Virus record (IMG/VR): IMGVR_UViG_3300020159_002173
Span: 1 to 26,952 of that record
Length of the DNA stretch: 26,952 nt
Source: a virus
Strand: one strand, 5' to 3'
Part shown: one piece after another, positions 7,046 to 26,952 of the stretch
Layout: every line of letters starts with the position of its first letter
How positions within the stretch are numbered: position 1 is the stretch's first letter
Program-made: the position numbers and the translations under genes
The notes under the pieces: generated by a model
What the model saw: the letters and a program-made list of their open reading frames with translations, nothing else
What the model was told of the DNA's origin: nothing
The model's database searches: none

Positions 7046-7698
7046 TATATTTTAGTTACAGTTACATACAAGCTTGGCTTGCTAGCATAGTTAGACCCTG
7101 CCGCCGCAGCATTTAGACTCATACCTACATTGCTTGTCATCCACATAGGCGATATGTAATCATTTGCCGCCACTTCAATAATATACTCAGCATAAGCCGT
7201 GCCAAAAGGAATTGTGGGGTGAAGCGAAAACCGCTTTGTCGTATTACTGATAAAGTTAGGTTCTCCATTTCTTGATAACCAAATCATAATATCCTGCTTT
7301 GCATTGTCTGCATTTGCTATCTGAGCAGAAATTCCTATCTTGTAAATACCTTCCGTTGGGAAGGTTAATCTGCACGGGATAGAAGAACCATTCAAAGCGA
7401 CAGAAACGCCCGATGTTAAAGCACTGTCAGTAACCCCCATCTCTAATGGGAACGGATTGTTTGGTGCCGAAGCTACATGATTTACTAAGCTGTAGAATAC
7501 CCCTCTTTTTGAAGCAATTGTTGCACTGAATGCTGATATTGCATTGTTCACAAAAGTAGCAACCTGAGCCATTATATAGGCAGATATAGCCCCAATAGAA
7601 AAATTCTTCGTTGCATTACTTCCTGACACATCAGTCCCTATTACCATGTCATCGTCAGAAATGGTCGGTTTTATTGGGTATACTACTATTTTTGACAT
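7045..7698 (-). CDS. Virion decoration or fibre-like protein with C1q/TNF-like C-terminus
   Basis: The 217-aa protein starts with PTISDDDMVIGTDVSGSN and NFSIGAISAYI, an attachment-type N-terminus often seen on phage tail or head fibre proteins. A short helical stretch (AQVATFVNNAISAFSATIAS, about 44-63) precedes a beta-rich C-terminal half with the rhythm of C1q/TNF-type jelly rolls: LTFPTEGIYKIGISAQI, IMIWLSRNG, AEYIIEVAANDYI, PSLYVTVTKI. Such proteins usually trimerise and bind surface ligands or decorate capsids. The domain call is by pattern only. It lies between a coiled-coil protein and small conserved genes in the late operon. Confidence 0.65.
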   Translation of the reverse strand: MSKIVVYPIKPTISDDDMVIGTDVSGSNATKNFSIGAISAYIMAQVATFVNNAISAFSATIASKRGVFYSLVNHVASAPNNPFPLEMGVTDSALTSGVSVALNGSSIPCRLTFPTEGIYKIGISAQIANADNAKQDIMIWLSRNGEPNFISNTTKRFSLHPTIPFGTAYAEYIIEVAANDYISPMWMTSNVGMSLNAAAAGSNYASKPSLYVTVTKI

Positions 7699-7703
7699 TG
7701 ATA

Positions 7704-7982
7704 TTATTTTTTATCCATGCTAACAACATTCCCCATCGACTTTTTATTCATCTCTGAAATCTCGCCTGTAGCCATGTTAATCATGATGTTATCTCCGTAT
7801 TTATTTTTGAGCATTTGCTCGTGAGCTGACAAAGCCTCACGTAGAGATTCTACCCCACGCATCATGCCCTGTTTTTCAATTTCTAAGCTACCAATCGCAC
7901 TTTCGAGCTTTCGGTATTCGCTATTCAAACCTTGTGTGGTTTGTAAATCTTCATTACTTAAGTAATTTTTATTGCTATCCAT
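7704..7982 (-). CDS. Small coiled-coil protein (prefoldin-like)
   Basis: A 92-aa protein made largely of a charged heptad-type helix (LNSEYRKLESAIGSLEIEKQ onward through ALSAHEQMLKNKYG) followed by a short NIMINMATGEIS segment. This layout, a coiled coil and then a KYG...I...TGE motif, recurs in small proteins of Bacteroidota phages, where it is annotated as hypothetical or prefoldin-like. It is preceded by a TACATTTG box, so a transcription unit may start here. Confidence 0.7.
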   Translation of the reverse strand: MDSNKNYLSNEDLQTTQGLNSEYRKLESAIGSLEIEKQGMMRGVESLREALSAHEQMLKNKYGDNIMINMATGEISEMNKKSMGNVVSMDKK

Positions 7983-7986
7983 AGTG

Positions 7987-7994
7987 CAAATGTA
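7987..7994 (-). promoter_or_regulatory. Candidate -7 box upstream of the coiled-coil gene
   Basis: The minus strand reads TACATTTG here, five bases before the ATG at 7982. It matches TAnnTTTG, but at the -33 distance only TTAG (8018-8015) is present, so the element is partial. If used, the transcript would be almost leaderless. Confidence 0.25.
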
Positions 7995-8004
7995 TGTAAT
8001 TAAA

Positions 8005-8676
8005 TTAAATTAACCTAATAAATCCCTTACATTTTGAAATAAGTCTACCTCCCGGCTTTTTGCAGACCTCATGACCTTCTCTTGAGCCATCGTCATTAGA
8101 GTTCCCTTCTGCTGTATTGAATATAAAACCCTTTAATATGTCATCACAAAAACCTGTATGCCCCTTACCTCCGCCAAAATCCATTATAAATATATCCCCC
8201 GGTTGCGGAGAAGCTTTCACTAACCCCTTCCTTTTTGCGTAGTTATAAACTGTCAATACGTGACCCGACTTAAATAGTGGGTTCTTTTTGCCTGTCGTTT
8301 CGCAAGCCCTAATTACACACCAATAAACAAACGCCATACACCATGACGCAGGAATTTTTAAGCCTACCGAATCCAAATACACCTTGACCTCAGGCCCCCA
8401 ATTAGACCCCTTCGGAACCTCTTGGACACCAATCTCAGATTTTGCATAATATAAAGCCACCTCGCCTAATGCCGCATTGTACGGCTTAAGGAACTTAGTG
8501 TTCACCCAACCATATCGTGTATACCCCCAAACGTCACTACCAACACTCTCTGTTTTATGAACGGCAACAATCTCGCCATTAGATAATGGCGGTCTGCTTT
8601 TTACTAACGTATGATTAACCCCCGGGCCTACTCGCAAATTAAGCATCTTAGAATCTACCTTGTATATAACGTCCAT
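8005..8676 (-). CDS. Endolysin: SH3b domain plus CHAP-type amidase/peptidase
   Basis: The 223-aa protein combines an N-terminal bacterial SH3 domain (about 1-66, LNLRVGPGVNHTLVKS through YGWVNTKFLKP), which binds peptidoglycan, and a CHAP/NlpC-P60-like domain (about 75-223). The catalytic Cys is C113 in SWCMAFVYWC, the His is H173 in GKGHTGFCDD, and the polar residues after TAEGNSND complete the site. Cell-wall cleavage at the end of infection is the likely role. There is no signal peptide, so release would depend on the two-TM holin-like protein encoded at 9740-9919. SH3b in front of the catalytic domain is the reverse of many Gram-positive phage lysins. Confidence 0.88.
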   Translation of the reverse strand: MDVIYKVDSKMLNLRVGPGVNHTLVKSRPPLSNGEIVAVHKTESVGSDVWGYTRYGWVNTKFLKPYNAALGEVALYYAKSEIGVQEVPKGSNWGPEVKVYLDSVGLKIPASWCMAFVYWCVIRACETTGKKNPLFKSGHVLTVYNYAKRKGLVKASPQPGDIFIMDFGGGKGHTGFCDDILKGFIFNTAEGNSNDDGSREGHEVCKKPGGRLISKCKGFIRLI

Positions 8677-8677
8677 T

Positions 8678-8950
8678 TTACTTCTTTTTAAATAGGTTAA
8701 TATCTATAGCAGATAGTATCCCTAATATCTTTCGAAGAATACTGCCTACTTTTGTAGATGGCTCACTTTCAGAATACTTGCTTGCAATAGATTGCAAAAC
8801 AGCCAACAGGACAATCTTCGCTCTGTGTGCGGGGACATCCTTAGCTAACATAATCCCAAGCTCCTGTCTAACAACTCGATTGTAATCAGGCACCTTCCCT
8901 TGGAATTTAATTATATCATGGTCTGTAAGTAAATTATCGTAATTCTGCAT
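8678..8950 (-). CDS. 90-aa helical protein in the lysis region
   Basis: An unrecognised protein one base upstream of the endolysin gene. It is helical, with a moderately hydrophobic stretch AHRAKIVLLAVLQSIASKYS and a basic C-terminal amphipathic segment ending DINLFKKK. The hydrophobic run is interrupted by charged residues, so it is not a clear membrane span. Its place beside the endolysin raises the option of a lysis accessory protein, but a structural role is equally possible. Confidence 0.65.
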   Translation of the reverse strand: MQNYDNLLTDHDIIKFQGKVPDYNRVVRQELGIMLAKDVPAHRAKIVLLAVLQSIASKYSESEPSTKVGSILRKILGILSAIDINLFKKK

Positions 8951-8969
8951 TTTTTTGTTTTTAATAATA

Positions 8970-9512
8970 CTACCACATAGCTATGAATGGAGGCTTCATA
9001 GTAGAATCTTTAGCAACGAAAGCATTTAAATTTTTAAAATAAATAAACTTCTTAATTTGGAATGGCAAAATAATAGGCCCTGAAGGTTGTGCCGCTTGGT
9101 CTATAATATAATCTATAATATCCCCGCCTATAGTCTCTACGGTTACGTACCCGTAAGAATCAGTAATCCCACAAGTAATCATCAGTGTACATCCTCGATT
9201 ATTCAACCCCGAAGCGTCACTGCCTGAGTATATTTCGTAATCCTCGCCGGGACTAGTGAATATGTCATCTGATAAGATTAGATTGTTTGTACCTACGCTT
9301 AATACTTTAGCGACAGTATAAAAATAACTTGGATTGTACACAATGTCTCCTGCAGAGACCCCTAATGCTATAAAGTCAGTATTATTGTCTATAAGTTGAT
9401 ACCCCGTTGCAGCTGTTGTAGCTCCCTGCTTTATTAAATTAGGGTATGGTATGTCATAAGGGCTTGCGTTTATATGTAAGGCTCTTGTATATTTTTGGTT
9501 AAATGCTGACAT
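8970..9512 (-). CDS. Beta-rich virion protein, conserved type
   Basis: A 180-aa protein starting SAFNQKYTRALHINASPYDI. It contains DFIALGVSAGDIVYN, AKVLSVGTNNLILSDDIF and YVTVETIGGDIIDYI, a pattern common in phage structural proteins built from beta strands (head-fibre, tail-knob or baseplate components). No catalytic motif is visible. Its spacing from neighbours is short and it shares direction with the late genes. The exact virion location cannot be told from the sequence. Confidence 0.65.
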   Translation of the reverse strand: MSAFNQKYTRALHINASPYDIPYPNLIKQGATTAATGYQLIDNNTDFIALGVSAGDIVYNPSYFYTVAKVLSVGTNNLILSDDIFTSPGEDYEIYSGSDASGLNNRGCTLMITCGITDSYGYVTVETIGGDIIDYIIDQAAQPSGPIILPFQIKKFIYFKNLNAFVAKDSTMKPPFIAMW

Positions 9513-9514
9513 TT

Positions 9515-9736
9515 TTATCTTTTTTTGTTTTTGTAAAAAATTTTGTTTATCAGGATGTTAGGCTCGTTTAGCCTTTCTTTCCTTTCTTCACACCCGCAAT
9601 CCACCCCTGTTACATCTGACACCTTATCGACAACCATTTTTATACCTGTAGCTTTTGTTATTCGCTCTATAGTGTCGCCTATTCCTCTGTCAGGAATTTT
9701 ATAATCCTTCCATTTCTCAGTGTGTATCGTAGGCAT
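9515..9736 (-). CDS. Small protein with VDCGCEERKERLN motif
   Basis: A 73-aa protein with an amphipathic central helix (IGDTIERITKATGIKMVVDK) followed by VTGVDCGCEERKERLNEP and a basic tail. A CGC-x-x-R-K-x-x-L-N motif of this kind recurs in small proteins encoded next to holins in Bacteroidota phages, usually without assigned function. It lies between the holin-like gene and a structural gene. Confidence 0.65.
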   Translation of the reverse strand: MPTIHTEKWKDYKIPDRGIGDTIERITKATGIKMVVDKVSDVTGVDCGCEERKERLNEPNILINKIFYKNKKR

Positions 9737-9739
9737 ATT

Positions 9740-9919
9740 TTATTTTATAACTTCATTAGCTGTAATGCGCCCATATATTGCGTATACTAATCCCGCAACT
9801 TCTACAAGTTTCGTGGCTATAACGCTCAACTCGCTCTCTTCCATAACAAATCCTGTTAAAGAAGCAATAGCTGCTGCTACAATTCCCCAAATCGTTCTTG
9901 ACTGATACCAATTTTTCAT
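9740..9919 (-). CDS. Holin-like small membrane protein (59 aa)
   Basis: This short frame runs from ATG at 9917-9919 to TAA at 9740-9742. It begins MKNWYQSRTIWGIVAAAIAS. Two hydrophobic segments are visible, about residues 9-26 and 34-50 (LSVIATKLVEVAGLVYAIYG), separated by an acidic MEESE turn, with a charged tail ending GRITANEVIK. Two-TM proteins of this size next to an endolysin commonly act as holins, forming inner-membrane lesions that release the lysin. The leader is T/A rich on the minus strand, and a dispersed 18-bp palindrome lies 15 bases upstream at 9935-9952. Confidence 0.7.
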   Translation of the reverse strand: MKNWYQSRTIWGIVAAAIASLTGFVMEESELSVIATKLVEVAGLVYAIYGRITANEVIK

Positions 9920-9934
9920 GTTATTATTTTTTTT

Positions 9935-9952
9935 AGTGTCCCCGAAGAGACT
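9935..9952. promoter_or_regulatory. Dispersed 18-bp near-palindrome, copy 1
   Basis: AGTGTCCCCGAAGAGACT. This is the only full-quality copy in the left arm. It sits in the gap between the small acidic gene and the holin-like gene, where a bound protein could block or end transcription into the lysis genes. All invariant positions (GT, TC, GA, AC) are present. Confidence 0.6.
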
Positions 9953-9960
9953 GTTTGAAA

Positions 9961-10155
9961 TTATTTTGCTCTACTTTTTCTGCCCGGGTCTCCGTTTTTT
10001 GTGTCAATATAGACCCACCCGTCATCGGTGATTTCTTCTGTCACCTCCTGTTCAGGGGCCTCAAGTACATCGGGTTCTTGTTCGTAAACTACAGGAGTTT
10101 TAGTTTCAATAACTTCTGTCTCCTCAACTTTTTCAATATTTTTTTTGTTACCCAT
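9961..10155 (-). CDS. Small acidic protein (64 aa)
   Basis: I take the start as the ATG at 10153-10155 (MGNKKNIEKVEETEV) because the frame upstream of it overlaps the promoter region; a longer form from 10182 adds nine residues. The protein is strongly acidic in the middle (EQEPDVLEAPEQEVTEEITD) and ends with basic GDPGRKSRAK. It looks disordered and I recognise no domain. It is transcribed away from the winged-helix gene, with 40 bases between the two start codons. Confidence 0.6.
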   Translation of the reverse strand: MGNKKNIEKVEETEVIETKTPVVYEQEPDVLEAPEQEVTEEITDDGWVYIDTKNGDPGRKSRAK

Positions 10156-10175
10156 TTTTAAAGTATTTATCTTTG
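10144..10175 (+). promoter_or_regulatory. Bacteroidota promoter for the winged-helix gene
   Basis: TTTG at 10144-10147, a 20-base spacer, then TATCTTTG at 10168-10175, an exact fit to the Bacteroidota pattern TTTG-N19/21-TAnnTTTG. Transcription would start near 10182, giving a leader of about 14 bases before the ATG at 10196. The -33 box lies inside the first codons of the divergent acidic gene, so the two genes share control DNA. Confidence 0.6.
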
Positions 10176-10179
10176 TCTG

Positions 10180-10187
10180 CAAATATA
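10180..10187 (-). promoter_or_regulatory. Candidate -7 box for the leftward acidic gene
   Basis: The minus strand reads TATATTTG, about 25 bases before the ATG at 10155, which fits TAnnTTTG. The -33 position has TTTC, one mismatch from TTTG. Together with the rightward promoter it makes a compact divergent promoter pair. Confidence 0.35.
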
Positions 10188-10195
10188 CAAATAAA

Positions 10196-10663
10196 ATGAG
10201 ATTAAGAAAAAATAATTACCTGAAATATTATAAAGTTGTCAGGAAGTATATGTTAGCTAAATATAATCTAAGCCAAGCAGATTTGGATGTGCTACTTTAC
10301 ATCTACAGCGAATCCTACTTTACAAGAAAAACCTTTTTTATAATAAATAAAGTTCTTAAGTGGGAGGATGACAAGCTTTCTCGAATGATGAAGGATGGGT
10401 GGATTGAAAAGTTCAGAAACTCAAGCCCGGGTAAACCTGCAAGATACCAAATATCAATTAAGGGGTCGAGGCTTGTAACGGATTTGTACAATATTTTAGA
10501 CGGCGACAGAGAGATTAGCCAAAAAGCAAGATTCAACCCTTTATACTCAAGCAAACAGGATATAGATAAAAACTATATCAAAATGTTGGAAGAAATGATA
10601 GAGGACACCAAAAGGTTGAAAGCACTTGCTACTCAACAACAACTACGTCCCCCTCACGAATAA
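10196..10663 (+). CDS. Winged-helix (MarR/PadR-like) DNA-binding protein
   Basis: This 155-aa protein is the only rightward gene in the left arm. I use the ATG at 10196 (MRLRKNNYLKYYKVV), since it follows a good promoter; a 17-residue N-terminal extension in the same frame would begin upstream of the -7 box. Features of a winged helix are LSQADLDVLLYIYSE, a recognition region around INKVLKWEDDKLSRMMKDGW, and the wing SSPGKPARYQISIKGSRLV, typical of MarR-type regulators. It probably regulates phage transcription. Its 3' end overlaps the 3' end of groES by 35 bases in opposite orientation. Confidence 0.75.
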   Translation: MRLRKNNYLKYYKVVRKYMLAKYNLSQADLDVLLYIYSESYFTRKTFFIINKVLKWEDDKLSRMMKDGWIEKFRNSSPGKPARYQISIKGSRLVTDLYNILDGDREISQKARFNPLYSSKQDIDKNYIKMLEEMIEDTKRLKALATQQQLRPPHE

Positions 10664-10886
10664 TCGTAACCTGCTCATCCTTGATTAGCATAGTAAACGA
10701 GCTGCCCTTGTCGTAATAGACAACGTCTCCGTCTTTAATCGATTGAACCTCAGTCCCTTTCTTGATAACGACTGCTCTGCGGTATCGCAGTTGGTTAGCG
10801 TCCTCGCCCGAAAGCAATAATCCTGACTCTGTCTTTATGTCAGAGTGGTCGTCACGAACGGCTATGTACTTCCCTATCGGTTGCAT
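10629..10886 (-). CDS. groS: Co-chaperonin GroES (phage cpn10)
   Basis: An 85-aa cpn10 protein, shorter than the usual 94-97. It starts MQPIGKYIAVRDDHSD. The mobile loop is visible as TESGLLLSGEDAN, whose GLLLSG matches the GGIVLTG that docks on GroEL, followed by RRAVVIKKGTEV and KDGDVVYYDKG, the usual barrel strands. The roof loop is short. It would cap the phage GroEL encoded two genes upstream; the start overlaps the Cys-rich gene by 35 bases. The final residues EGDVVVVE match the classical end DILAIVE. Confidence 0.88.
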   Translation of the reverse strand: MQPIGKYIAVRDDHSDIKTESGLLLSGEDANQLRYRRAVVIKKGTEVQSIKDGDVVYYDKGSSFTMLIKDEQVTIIREGDVVVVE

Positions 10887-11061
10887 ATATTAAGTTTTTA
10901 TTATATATAAAATTATCGCAATGTGTTTTGCCCTCAAACTCATCGAATTTGAATATTTTAAACACAGACGGGTCTCCACCCGGGTGATTCGTGTATCGTT
11001 TGCATGACCCCTTTAGTGGGCACATGGTGTTTGCACAGCCTATATTAACCTCTTGCGTCAT
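10852..11061 (-). CDS. Small Cys protein between groEL and groES
   Basis: A 69-aa protein beginning MTQEVNIGCANTMCPLKGSC, with Cys at about 9, 14, 20 and 48 (KTHCDNF), which suggests a zinc or disulfide-stabilised fold. It overlaps groEL by 17 bases and groES by 35, so all three are one translation-coupled unit. I do not recognise the family. Its position invites the guess that it acts with the chaperonin, for example as a client or adaptor, but this is inference. Confidence 0.7.
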   Translation of the reverse strand: MTQEVNIGCANTMCPLKGSCKRYTNHPGGDPSVFKIFKFDEFEGKTHCDNFIYNKNLIYATDREVHSRS

Positions 11062-12646
11062 ATTCTCTTGCCATTGTGATTATTGCGTTAGTTGATAGGA
11101 TTGTAACAGCAACACTAATTGCGTTCTGCAATGCGCTTCTTGTTACCTTCAATGGGTCTATCACGCCCATATCGATTAGGTTCCCCTTTTCTCCTGTCTT
11201 CACGTTATATCCTTCATCCCAAGCCATACCGCCTGAGTAGATGTTGGTAACACAAAGCCCTGCATTCTCGATTATCTGAGTAAGCGGAGCTTTCAGTGAT
11301 AACTGAATTATATTCAACGCTGCAGCGTGCTCAGGAGATGTAGCTCCGCCACACAACTCTCTAAGGTCTATCGAGTCAAGCCCTCTACCTGCGCCCGGTA
11401 GGATACCCTCCTCAAGCGCAGAGCGAACAGCACATACTGCATCGTCCACTCGGTCATACAACTCCTTCTGCTCTAAGTCGGTATTACCGCCAACGTATAT
11501 CACGCCAACTCCACCCGTTAAAGAAGCAATTCGCTCAAGGATAAAGTCCTTGTCTGTTTTTTTAGTTGCCTTGTCGTAAGCATGCTTTAGCTCGTCCACT
11601 CGTTTCTCAATCTCCTCCATGTTTACCTTAGCCTCAGAACGGATAATAACAGTCTTGTCTGAACTTATCACAACCTTAGCAGCGTGGCCAAGGTCTCCGT
11701 AATTAATTAAACTTAAATCGTCACCTGTCTTTTCGCTGAAGTAGGTCGCTCCTACACTCATCGCAATGTCTTGCATCAGCTCATGTTGTCGGTACCCAAA
11801 ATTAGGAGGCTGAACAGCGCAGCATTTCAAATTCCCCCTAACCACATTAGCCGCTAACGTGTTTAGCATATTCTTCCCGCAAGGGGATATGATTAACAAT
11901 TTCTTACCCTCGGTGATAATTGGTTTCAAAACCTGCTCAACCTGAAGGATGTTGGATATCTCCGTGTCACTCATCAGTATCATCACGTCCTCAAGGATAC
12001 ACTCGTCTCGCTTTTGGTCGTTCACGAATAATGGGCTCATAAACCCACGATTAAATTGCAACCCCTTCGTACTCTCCGTATAGGTCTCGGTTGTCTGAGA
12101 CTTCTCCACCGTCACTATGCCATTACGACCAACAGCTTTGTACACGTCAGCTATCAACTTCCCCGTCTCCTTGTCGTTATTCGCAGACAATGACGCTACA
12201 TCCCCAATCATTTTCGTTGTCACTCGTTTACTCATCCCTCGAAGCTTGTCCACTACCTGCTCCCCTATGTCTGACATATGGCGAAGCACAGCAGTCCTGT
12301 TCAACTTCTCATCCAAAAACTCAATCCCCGTCAAAACCAATGCCTCAGTTAATACTATCGCCGTTGTCGTCCCATCCCCCGCAGAAGTAGCGGTACGCTC
12401 AGCAGCCTCACGCATCATACTCACAGCCAAATTTTCAACAGGGTCTATCAACTCTATCGACTTCGCTACAGTTACCCCATCCTTCGTCACAGTTATACCA
12501 TGGGTATGATTAGGTGACTCTATCAAGACCGTATTACCCGATGGCCCTAAAGTGCTTTTTACAGCAGTTGCCATTTTTACAATACCCTTCACTAATTTGT
12601 CTCGACCTTCTTTTCCGAACTTTAAATTTTTTGGTTGGTACTCCAT
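11045..12646 (-). CDS. groL: Chaperonin GroEL (phage-encoded)
   Basis: This 533-aa group I chaperonin is near full length (E. coli 548). Nucleotide-binding motifs are present: STLGPSGNTVLIE (about 31-43), TKDGVTVAKSIEL (54-66), SAGDGTTTA (88-96) with the catalytic Asp, and RVDDAV at about 399-404 with the residue equivalent to E. coli D398. The apical block RGFMSPLFVN is intact, as is the equatorial C-terminal GNLIDMGVIDPLKVTRSALQ. The GGM-repeat tail is absent; it ends MAREYDARG. It differs at GPSGN (usually GPKGRN) and GILPGAG (usually GVVAGGG). It is the first gene of the leftward arm, behind a near-consensus promoter, and probably folds virion proteins. Confidence 0.95.
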   Translation of the reverse strand: MEYQPKNLKFGKEGRDKLVKGIVKMATAVKSTLGPSGNTVLIESPNHTHGITVTKDGVTVAKSIELIDPVENLAVSMMREAAERTATSAGDGTTTAIVLTEALVLTGIEFLDEKLNRTAVLRHMSDIGEQVVDKLRGMSKRVTTKMIGDVASLSANNDKETGKLIADVYKAVGRNGIVTVEKSQTTETYTESTKGLQFNRGFMSPLFVNDQKRDECILEDVMILMSDTEISNILQVEQVLKPIITEGKKLLIISPCGKNMLNTLAANVVRGNLKCCAVQPPNFGYRQHELMQDIAMSVGATYFSEKTGDDLSLINYGDLGHAAKVVISSDKTVIIRSEAKVNMEEIEKRVDELKHAYDKATKKTDKDFILERIASLTGGVGVIYVGGNTDLEQKELYDRVDDAVCAVRSALEEGILPGAGRGLDSIDLRELCGGATSPEHAAALNIIQLSLKAPLTQIIENAGLCVTNIYSGGMAWDEGYNVKTGEKGNLIDMGVIDPLKVTRSALQNAISVAVTILSTNAIITMAREYDARG

Positions 12647-25928: not shown

Positions 25929-26228
25929 ATGACACAAGAAGAACAAGTAAAACATTTTGAAGTATTAACTACTCAAATGAAAGAAATCCTTTTTAAGAAA
26001 GGTAATGATTATGCAAATACTGATAGACTTTCTAATTTTAAATTAGCCGGTGGTATTTGTGGACTAAAAGCAGAGCAAAACTGCTTGTCGATAATAGCTA
26101 CAAAAGTGGCAAGGTTGGGTGTTTTATTAAATTCAGATAAAGCACCGAATAATGAGAGTATTCAAGATAGTGTTTTGGATTTAGCTAATTACTCTATTTT
26201 ATTATCAATGATTTTAAACGACAAATAA
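25929..26228 (+). CDS. DUF1599-type protein (nucleotide modification associated domain 1)
   Basis: 99 residues with the family's landmarks: KKGNDYANTDRLSNFKLAGG (K-G-x-D-Y-A and N-F-K), TKVARLGVLLN (K-x-x-R) and NESIQDSVLDLANYSILLSM (N-E-S, D-S, D-L-x-N-Y). Proteins of this type occur in phages near nucleotide metabolism or DNA modification genes and have an all-helical, MazG-like character. The exact reaction is not known. Its TAA overlaps the ATG of the next gene. Confidence 0.8.
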   Translation: MTQEEQVKHFEVLTTQMKEILFKKGNDYANTDRLSNFKLAGGICGLKAEQNCLSIIATKVARLGVLLNSDKAPNNESIQDSVLDLANYSILLSMILNDK

Positions 26229-26473
26229 TGAAGCTATTTATAACCGGATTTACGCAAGTATTTTTTGTAGCTATCAATACCTTTTTTATAAGCAAAGCTA
26301 TTTATGGTGGTGTTCTTATTTGTGGGTTTTTAATATCATTTGTTTGGTCTTGGAATGTCAAAAAGGTAGCCTTTGGAACTATACAAGATAGACTATGGTA
26401 TTCGTTTGGTGCCGGATTCGGCTCATTGGTAGGTCTTATTGTATCGGTGGCGGTCTTTCAGCATATCAGCTAA
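26228..26473 (+). CDS. Small integral membrane protein (81 aa)
   Basis: At least two, perhaps three membrane spans: FITGFTQVFFVAINTFFISK (about 4-23), YGGVLICGFLISFVWSW (about 26-42) and AGFGSLVGLIVSVAVF (about 62-77), with the polar loop VKKVAFGTIQDRL between. Similar small membrane proteins are familiar from Bacteroidota phages. Its stop codon lies inside the first box of the attC-like site that follows, which marks the probable junction of phage gene and inserted element. Confidence 0.65.
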   Translation: MKLFITGFTQVFFVAINTFFISKAIYGGVLICGFLISFVWSWNVKKVAFGTIQDRLWYSFGAGFGSLVGLIVSVAVFQHIS

Positions 26474-26562
26474 CGGTTTGCGTATATACGAGGTACGCCT
26501 TAACGAAATTTCAAATTATAAACAAATGCTTGTAGGCGTATCTTGTATATACGCTGTTAGGC
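26468..26562 (+). mobile_element. attC-like recombination site 1
   Basis: Outer boxes CTAAC (26470-26474) and GTTAGGC (26556-26562). Between them a 20-base arm (26480-26499, from GCGTATATAC to TACGCC) pairs with a second arm (26535-26554, from GGCGTA to TATACGC) with two mismatches; an unpaired GGTTT on one side and a single T on the other mimic the extrahelical asymmetry of attC sites. The long A/T-rich loop has no coding potential. GTTAGGC fits the GTTRRRY consensus. Confidence 0.6.
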
Positions 26563-26574
26563 GAAGTACTTATT

Positions 26575-26814
26575 ATGGATTTTAGAAAAACATTAAAATA
26601 CCTACGCATTGTGCAAACGGTATCAAACGAAGAAAGACACAAACAAGGATTAAAACGATTAGGTCGTGGCTATTTCAACGCACACAGATTTAATCCATAC
26701 AATCCGCTTAGTTACATATCACTCATTATAATACTAATTGTAGGTATTTTAATGTTTGGCTTTGTCGGATTTTGGAAAGAAACTACAACTCTCAATCCGT
26801 TTCGGTGGGATTAG
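26575..26814 (+). CDS. Putative cassette-borne small membrane protein (79 aa)
   Basis: A basic N-terminal half (MDFRKTLKYLRIVQTVSNEE, RHKQGLKRLGRG) is followed by one membrane span (about 48-67, ISLIIILIVGILMFGFVGFW) and a short tail ending NPFRWD. It starts 13 bases after the first attC-like site and ends seven bases before the second, the compact gene-plus-attC layout of an integron cassette. The leader differs from the A-rich phage leaders (GAAGTACTTATT). Function unknown; cassette genes often are. Confidence 0.6.
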   Translation: MDFRKTLKYLRIVQTVSNEERHKQGLKRLGRGYFNAHRFNPYNPLSYISLIIILIVGILMFGFVGFWKETTTLNPFRWD

Positions 26815-26820
26815 TATTTC

Positions 26821-26881
26821 GCCTAACTTACCGATAGGCGATAGTTGCCGCCTCGGCAATTTTGCCTATCGAGAGTTAGGT
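26821..26881 (+). mobile_element. attC-like recombination site 2
   Basis: GCCTAAC (26821-26827, RYYYAAC) and GTTAGGT (26875-26881, GTTRRRY) are outer boxes. CGATAGGC (26832-26839) pairs with GCCTATCG (26864-26871), with TTAC against AGA as unpaired, asymmetric spacers. TTGCCG-CCT-CGGCAA (26845-26859) makes a terminal hairpin. GCCTAAC is the exact complement of GTTAGGC at the start of this cassette (26556), as the attC model requires of a cassette and its own site. Confidence 0.7.
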
Positions 26882-26896
26882 GTCCTCGAAGAGACT
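26879..26896. promoter_or_regulatory. Dispersed 18-bp near-palindrome, copy 10
   Basis: GGTGTCCTCGAAGAGACT, overlapping the last three bases of the second attC-like site and preceding the next gene by about 30 bases. It marks return to phage sequence. Confidence 0.55.
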
Positions 26897-26924: not shown

Positions 26925-26952
26925 ATGGGGCATATACAGAATATGACTAACG
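26925..26952 (+). CDS. Start of a gene cut off by the window edge
   Basis: ATG at 26925 after a typical leader (AATAATAAACAAAATAAAAT) opens MGHIQNMTN before the window ends. A second in-frame ATG at 26943 opens MTN, like the 48-aa basic protein MTNIQRK. Too short to identify. Confidence 0.35.

Follow-up and report, generated by a model that had tools for sequence, protein, structure and literature searches.

Integrons (the integrase IntI with its attI and attC sites; sedentary chromosomal integrons included) are known as bacterial devices, and phages are known only as occasional carriers of their parts. The I2 domain is specific to IntI, where it reportedly makes room for the extrahelical bases of attC (PMC4792948). 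Escudero et al. (2016) raised the question of attC selection before the I2 domain existed and asked whether integrons are of viral origin (PMC4792948). Qi et al. (2023) described virulent phages that carry gene cassettes and sites of the attC type, and IntI1 used five of the six attC sites tested; the 21 phages concerned carry ordinary attC clusters or host-derived IntI integrons (PMC9892861). CTXphi with the XerCD of its host resembles the system described below in its folded single-stranded phage site without extrahelical bases and in an enzyme without an I2 domain; unlike that system, CTXphi has neither a recombinase gene nor a cassette array (PMC4792948). The literature covered, with preprints and most subscription papers outside its scope, describes integron parts in phages (PMC9892861) and no phage system of the present kind. 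Here we examined a viral contig which, judged by sequence comparison, very probably carries two cassettes, one complete and the other truncated, of a site-specific recombination system that resembles integrons and is borne by phages.

The window, i.e. the whole stretch of DNA analysed, is a viral contig of 26,952 bases. It encodes a tailed-phage large terminase and a portal protein, and its right end falls shortly after the start of the feature (Table 1). A preliminary description had noted a 79-aa gene between two attC-like hairpins. Both hairpins could be confirmed. Folded as single-stranded DNA, 26468-26564 reached -21 kcal/mol (z -5.8) and 26819-26884 with -20.5 kcal/mol (z -7.4); in either case none of 200 dinucleotide shuffles was equally stable. 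The complementarity proposed across the gene was also present. The R box GTTAGGCGAA has an exact 10-nt complement, TTCGCCTAAC, directly after the 79-aa ORF; beyond these ten positions G faces T at position 11 and four more complementary bases follow. The first site overlaps the stop codon of the upstream phage gene, as had been stated. The second site starts at the TAAC which closes cassette 1 (hairpin score 9.5). The cassette to which it belongs is truncated by the contig end at 26952, and its R'' box would fall past the contig. The 79-aa ORF had no match in Pfam or PHROG, a scan of the window with Rfam returned no RNA family, and no tRNA was found in the window.

Table 1. Features at the right end of the window (↓ marks the junction between units).
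Feature	Position	Strand	Remarks
Upstream phage gene, 81 aa, PHROG 6764	26228..26473	+	TAA stop overlaps left TAAC junction box
Left TAAC box	26471..26474	+	lies over the TAA stop of the upstream gene
Complete cassette (mobile unit)	26475..26827	+	junctions TAAC↓GG left, TAAC↓TT right; different outer flanks in L025-L028
attC-like site 1	26471..26565	+	TAAC box, one-sided bulge GGTTT, inner stem, R box GTTAGGCGAA
Inner stem of attC-like site 1	26480..26499 / 26535..26554	+	
R box of cassette 1	26556..26565	+	GTTAGGCGAA
79-aa ORF, hydrophobic segment	26575..26814	+	family widespread in phages, usually without hairpins
R'' box of cassette 1	26813..26827	+	AGTA T TTCGCCTAAC, complementary to R box GTTAGGCGAA
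Exact 10-nt complement of R box	26818..26827	+	TTCGCCTAAC
attC-like site 2, start of next cassette	26824..26884	+	R box GTTAGGTGTC at 26875-26884

The extent of the unit was defined by its relatives. Copies of the 79-aa gene with 94-99% identity were present in four other viral contigs (L025-L028). The whole upstream hairpin was present in three of these four, and L026 retained only its last bases. The outer flanks differ in each of the five contigs, on the left before TAAC↓G and on the right after CGCCTAAC. Because the differing flanks lie outside hairpin plus gene, the unit is 26475-26827 and not the stretch 26556-26875 originally taken as the cassette. The polarity was reversed as well: the attC-like site is located 5' of the gene. 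The unit detector called cassette 1 of the window with TAAC at 26471, the R box at 26556 and the end at 26827. The downstream hairpin occurs in the window only. Conservation of gene and hairpins at one locus in all relatives would have contradicted a mobile cassette. However, 21 relatives of the upstream gene lacked the cassette at this place, and gene and hairpin were found again at unrelated places. L004, the closest relative of the upstream gene, does not show a clean empty site. About 30 distant homologues of the 79-aa gene are located in ordinary phage gene rows without hairpins. Two other relatives of the upstream gene have cassette arrays elsewhere in the locus (L007, around 7671-12069; L011, reverse strand, around 8552-10352).

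A scan with the hairpin core retrieved 35 viral contigs, about 29 of them with the full hairpin, and the hairpin preceded a different gene in nearly all. The hairpins share structure, yet too little sequence for a MAFFT alignment. If a unit was once circular, the complement of its own box is expected at its end, and this prediction was tested on the hairpin copies. The complement was present in 25 of 29. It nearly always comprised 8-10 exact nucleotides, 160-414 bases on, and was located right after one small ORF. Several unit ends run directly into another hairpin. Mobile regulatory cassettes have been proposed for T4-type phages. On a similar model, the hairpins would act in regulation, as RNA or as promoter stem-loops, and the genes would be shuffled by homologous recombination among the repeats. 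The position of a hairpin upstream of each ORF, on the coding strand, agrees with it. However, the box complementarity spans the ORF and varies between units, the junctions are exactly at TAAC, and the promoter motif TAnnTTTG was not enriched in the hairpins (23 observed, 28 expected). We consider regulatory stem-loops very unlikely, also in light of the arrays described next. The count of TAnnTTTG equally gave no support to the notion that each hairpin is a standard Bacteroidota promoter.

Six of 30 hairpin-bearing records encode a tyrosine recombinase, directly after the array in all six. Relatives of this 267-aa recombinase were found in 191 contigs, viral by IMG/VR classification, and 80 of these were used for the locus analysis. 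A search for structure plus complement detected 309 units in the 80 recombinase loci compared to 12 in shuffled sequence. With a polarity filter, the recombinase had 296 units on its upstream side and 5 on its downstream side. A control of 53 unrelated phage loci, 572 kb in total, gave 13 units, 9 of them in two array-carrying contigs. Among 410 hairpins, 296 had the complement of their own box downstream and 51 that of the box of another unit. As in integrons, the units chain head to tail: 289 of 419 ended where another hairpin starts, and the largest arrays detected comprised 14-15 units. Just as attI adjoins the integrase gene, a conserved attI-like site, TAAC↓TATWWTATATA, lies between the last cassette, which abuts it, and the start codon of the recombinase; the degree of its conservation was assessed in a pattern-selected set of loci. 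Of the 69 recombinase loci that extend at least 500 bp upstream, 20 had no unit end called by the detector within 150 bp of the gene, and in several of these the array ended somewhat further upstream. Stem-loops of a regulatory kind would not be expected to pile up on one side of a recombinase and to abut a conserved site.

The genes within the arrays are oriented differently from those of integrons. The longest ORF faced the recombinase in 258 units and had the opposite direction in 27, and the hairpin is 5' of the gene. In integrons, genes point away from the integrase and attC is 3' of the gene; accordingly, in R100 with intI1 and aadA1, an ordinary integron, the cassette gene points away. 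One may also think of a small transposon, e.g. a single-strand element of the IS200/IS605 type with a passenger gene, since a subterminal hairpin and a short, fixed, target-like TAAC are features of the units. Elements of the IS200/IS605 type have hairpins at both ends and an HUH transposase. Yet there is one hairpin per unit, on the left only, the ends vary between units while remaining self-complementary, and the units are strung head to tail at a single location. A transposon is thus most improbable. Two more, divergent recombinases follow directly after arrays in L097 and L098; therefore, more than one recombinase lineage may serve such cassettes. In L072, L086 and L098 the ORF of some units starts within the hairpin loop, i.e. 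gene and recombination site overlap.

Closure of a cassette into a circle would join TAAC to the hairpin and thereby complete a long paired site. As with R' and R'' of integron cassettes, the outer boxes are complementary in the circular form, in the window, in 25 of the 29 hairpin copies and in a total of 330 units. In the latter, pairing at positions 1-8 is imposed by the search itself. Positions 9-10 paired in 70-82% and positions 12-15 in 75-85% of the units. Position 11 was almost never complementary; in 231 of the 330 units a 5' G was opposite T. When the circle-closed site was folded, the coding strand folded better in 295 of 314 cases (p ~1e-50) because the imperfections are mostly G/T wobbles on the coding strand. 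In integron cassettes, too, one strand folds better, and extrahelical bases mark this recombinogenic strand. The wobbles fit RNA as well as single-stranded DNA, a point in favor of regulatory stem-loops, and the strand bias could partly be RNA structure, as a wobble-tolerant fold is also present in RNA of the same strand. Most sites had a one-sided bulge of 3-4 nt next to the junction and clean arms. This differs from the usual extrahelical bases of attC; single extrahelical bases were not seen in the sites examined. The R box is GTTA, and the integron consensus GTTRRRY, advanced as an attC hallmark of this locus, fits the GTTAGGC of the window and only 31 of the 330 R boxes of the system. Very compact sites of 45 nt are present in L116, L130, L131, L100 and L099; their loop, AATCGTTTTAATG, is common to many arrays and the outer boxes differ.

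Are units gained, lost and moved as a whole, as integron cassettes are? This was evident in L116, L130 and L131. Their backbones are 97-99.6% identical, yet they differ by whole units. Positions 1-1828 of L130 equal 1429-3256 of L116 at 100%, and the identity breaks exactly after TAAC. A unit of 960 bases, with 99.9% identity, has two other units as its neighbors in L116; in L130 and L131 it adjoins the recombinase. The array of L163 carries one unit twice. The recombination events themselves we infer from these comparisons, and repeats of 45-60 nt in metagenomic contigs could in principle cause assembly misjoins.

Next, the affiliation of the 267-aa recombinase was examined. The best NCBIfam model was XerA/integron integrase NF040815 with 167 bits, below the cut-off of 220; the IntI model TIGR02249 gave 153.8 bits (cut-off 265). 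The predicted structure (mean pLDDT 85) matched best with IntI4 (2a3v) and XerA (5hxy). An alignment with four IntI proteins including IntI1 showed that the long I2 insert specific for IntI is lacking. In a tree, the IntI proteins formed their own clade (98/97) with the phage enzymes outside; the latter grouped with Bacteroidota recombinases (87/93, rough supports). The catalytic residues R, K, H, R, H and Y were invariant across 58 recombinases. In size and fold the enzyme is like XerA/Xer recombinases (NF040815; PDB 5hxy, 4a8e). Unlike those, it is below the family cut-off and is associated with cassette arrays rather than with dif sites. By these features the system would work like an integron, but it departs from what defines one. 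We did not classify it as an integron because the recombinase lacks the IntI insert and is outside the IntI clade, and because the ORFs face the recombinase.

Taken together, a cassette consists of an attC-like hairpin site followed by one small ORF, the far end of which is the complement of the box located just inside the hairpin. In an intact system the array ends at the attI-like TAAC↓TATWWTATATA, directly followed by the 267-aa tyrosine recombinase of the Xer/IntI type. This enzyme would cleave the folded coding strand at TAAC↓G, release cassettes in circular form and integrate them into attI-like or attC-like sites. The catalytic role of the recombinase and the single-stranded nature of its substrate are inferred from sequence. 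The suggestion of an integron-type cassette in a phage was thus apt as to the type, but a lone capture is not what we see, as the same class forms arrays beside a phage-encoded recombinase. The statement that the window lacks an integrase was correct: no IntI was found in the window record, and its 26,952 bases show no recombinase. The integrase is presumably missing because the window is a fragment truncated within a cassette array. Provided that the layout is the usual one, the sequence to the right of base 26952 is predicted to contain more cassettes, as well as the attI-like site and the recombinase.

Alternatively, the cassettes could be those of integrons of the Bacteroidota host, occasionally inserted by the host integrase, with the phages as passive carriers. 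Integron pieces in phages are already known (PMC9892861), the window is without a recombinase, and one cassette of this hairpin class, on a Chryseobacterium plasmid, has genes that point the usual way. The plasmid is L183 (NZ_CP041688.1; cassette around 7062-8272). The cassette contains Crp/Fnr and RidA genes, and a nearby gene bears the annotation site-specific tyrosine recombinase/integron integrase, which suggests exchange between phages and Bacteroidota. However, the arrays adjoin the recombinase gene on viral contigs, many of which also have a terminase gene (17 of 43 recombinase-bearing records, including those of 310 and 362 kb). G065 and G067, with recombinase and array, carry relatives of the terminase and portal of the window itself. 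The hairpin of the window had no full match in 72,556 plasmid records, only partial ones at chance level, and no match in 50,697 phage records. Moreover, IntegronFinder 2.0 reported very few Bacteroidetes integrons. Over the viral, plasmid and phage records covered, we therefore consider an origin from host integrons unlikely. A scan of genome contigs with a 19-mer from the R box side gave one archaeal hit, of a size expected by chance. Four recombinase relatives on isolate phage or plasmid records were examined (L183-L186); these had no array save for the one cassette on the Chryseobacterium plasmid.

The phage-borne system also differs from the phages of Qi et al. (2023) in two respects: its arrays, present in dozens of viral contigs, are associated with a distinct recombinase family, and the genes are reversed. 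It is carried by phages, and we lean toward the view that Bacteroidota phages, very large ones included, have an integron lineage of their own, with a Xer-like, I2-less enzyme acting on folded strands without classical extrahelical bases. If so, this lineage could be a sister or a forerunner of the bacterial integrons. An intermediate of this sort is what a viral origin of integrons, as proposed, would call for, as would the puzzle whether I2 domain or attC came first. A recombinase plus array would allow viruses to collect and shuffle accessory genes themselves, and would offer natural examples of hairpin cassette recombination without an IntI-specific domain. One enzyme and two short DNA sites would suffice to put the question of origin to the test. 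For the largest genomes of Al-Shayeb et al. (2020), Bacteroidetes are the predicted hosts (PMC7162821). A related hairpin is also present in two phage genomes, L194 (LR756502.1, 642 kb) and L195 (LR745206.1, 635 kb); the 40-kb stretches examined in them contain a few units of the same class, and no tyrosine recombinase was recognized there by motif.

Finally, the cargo was characterized. Few of 149 cassette ORFs matched Pfam: two DNA methylases, one each of Mom, RNA ligase, HAD_SAK_2, ART-PolyVal and YopX, and others. PHROGs and PADLOC agreed with Pfam; most ORFs were small and of unknown function. Elsewhere in the window, at 10629-12646 on the minus strand, a GroES-like protein (85 aa) and a GroEL (533 aa) are encoded. 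The GroEL is about 40% identical to bacterial GroELs on plasmids, and a GroEL is also encoded near the recombinase in L138 and L161.
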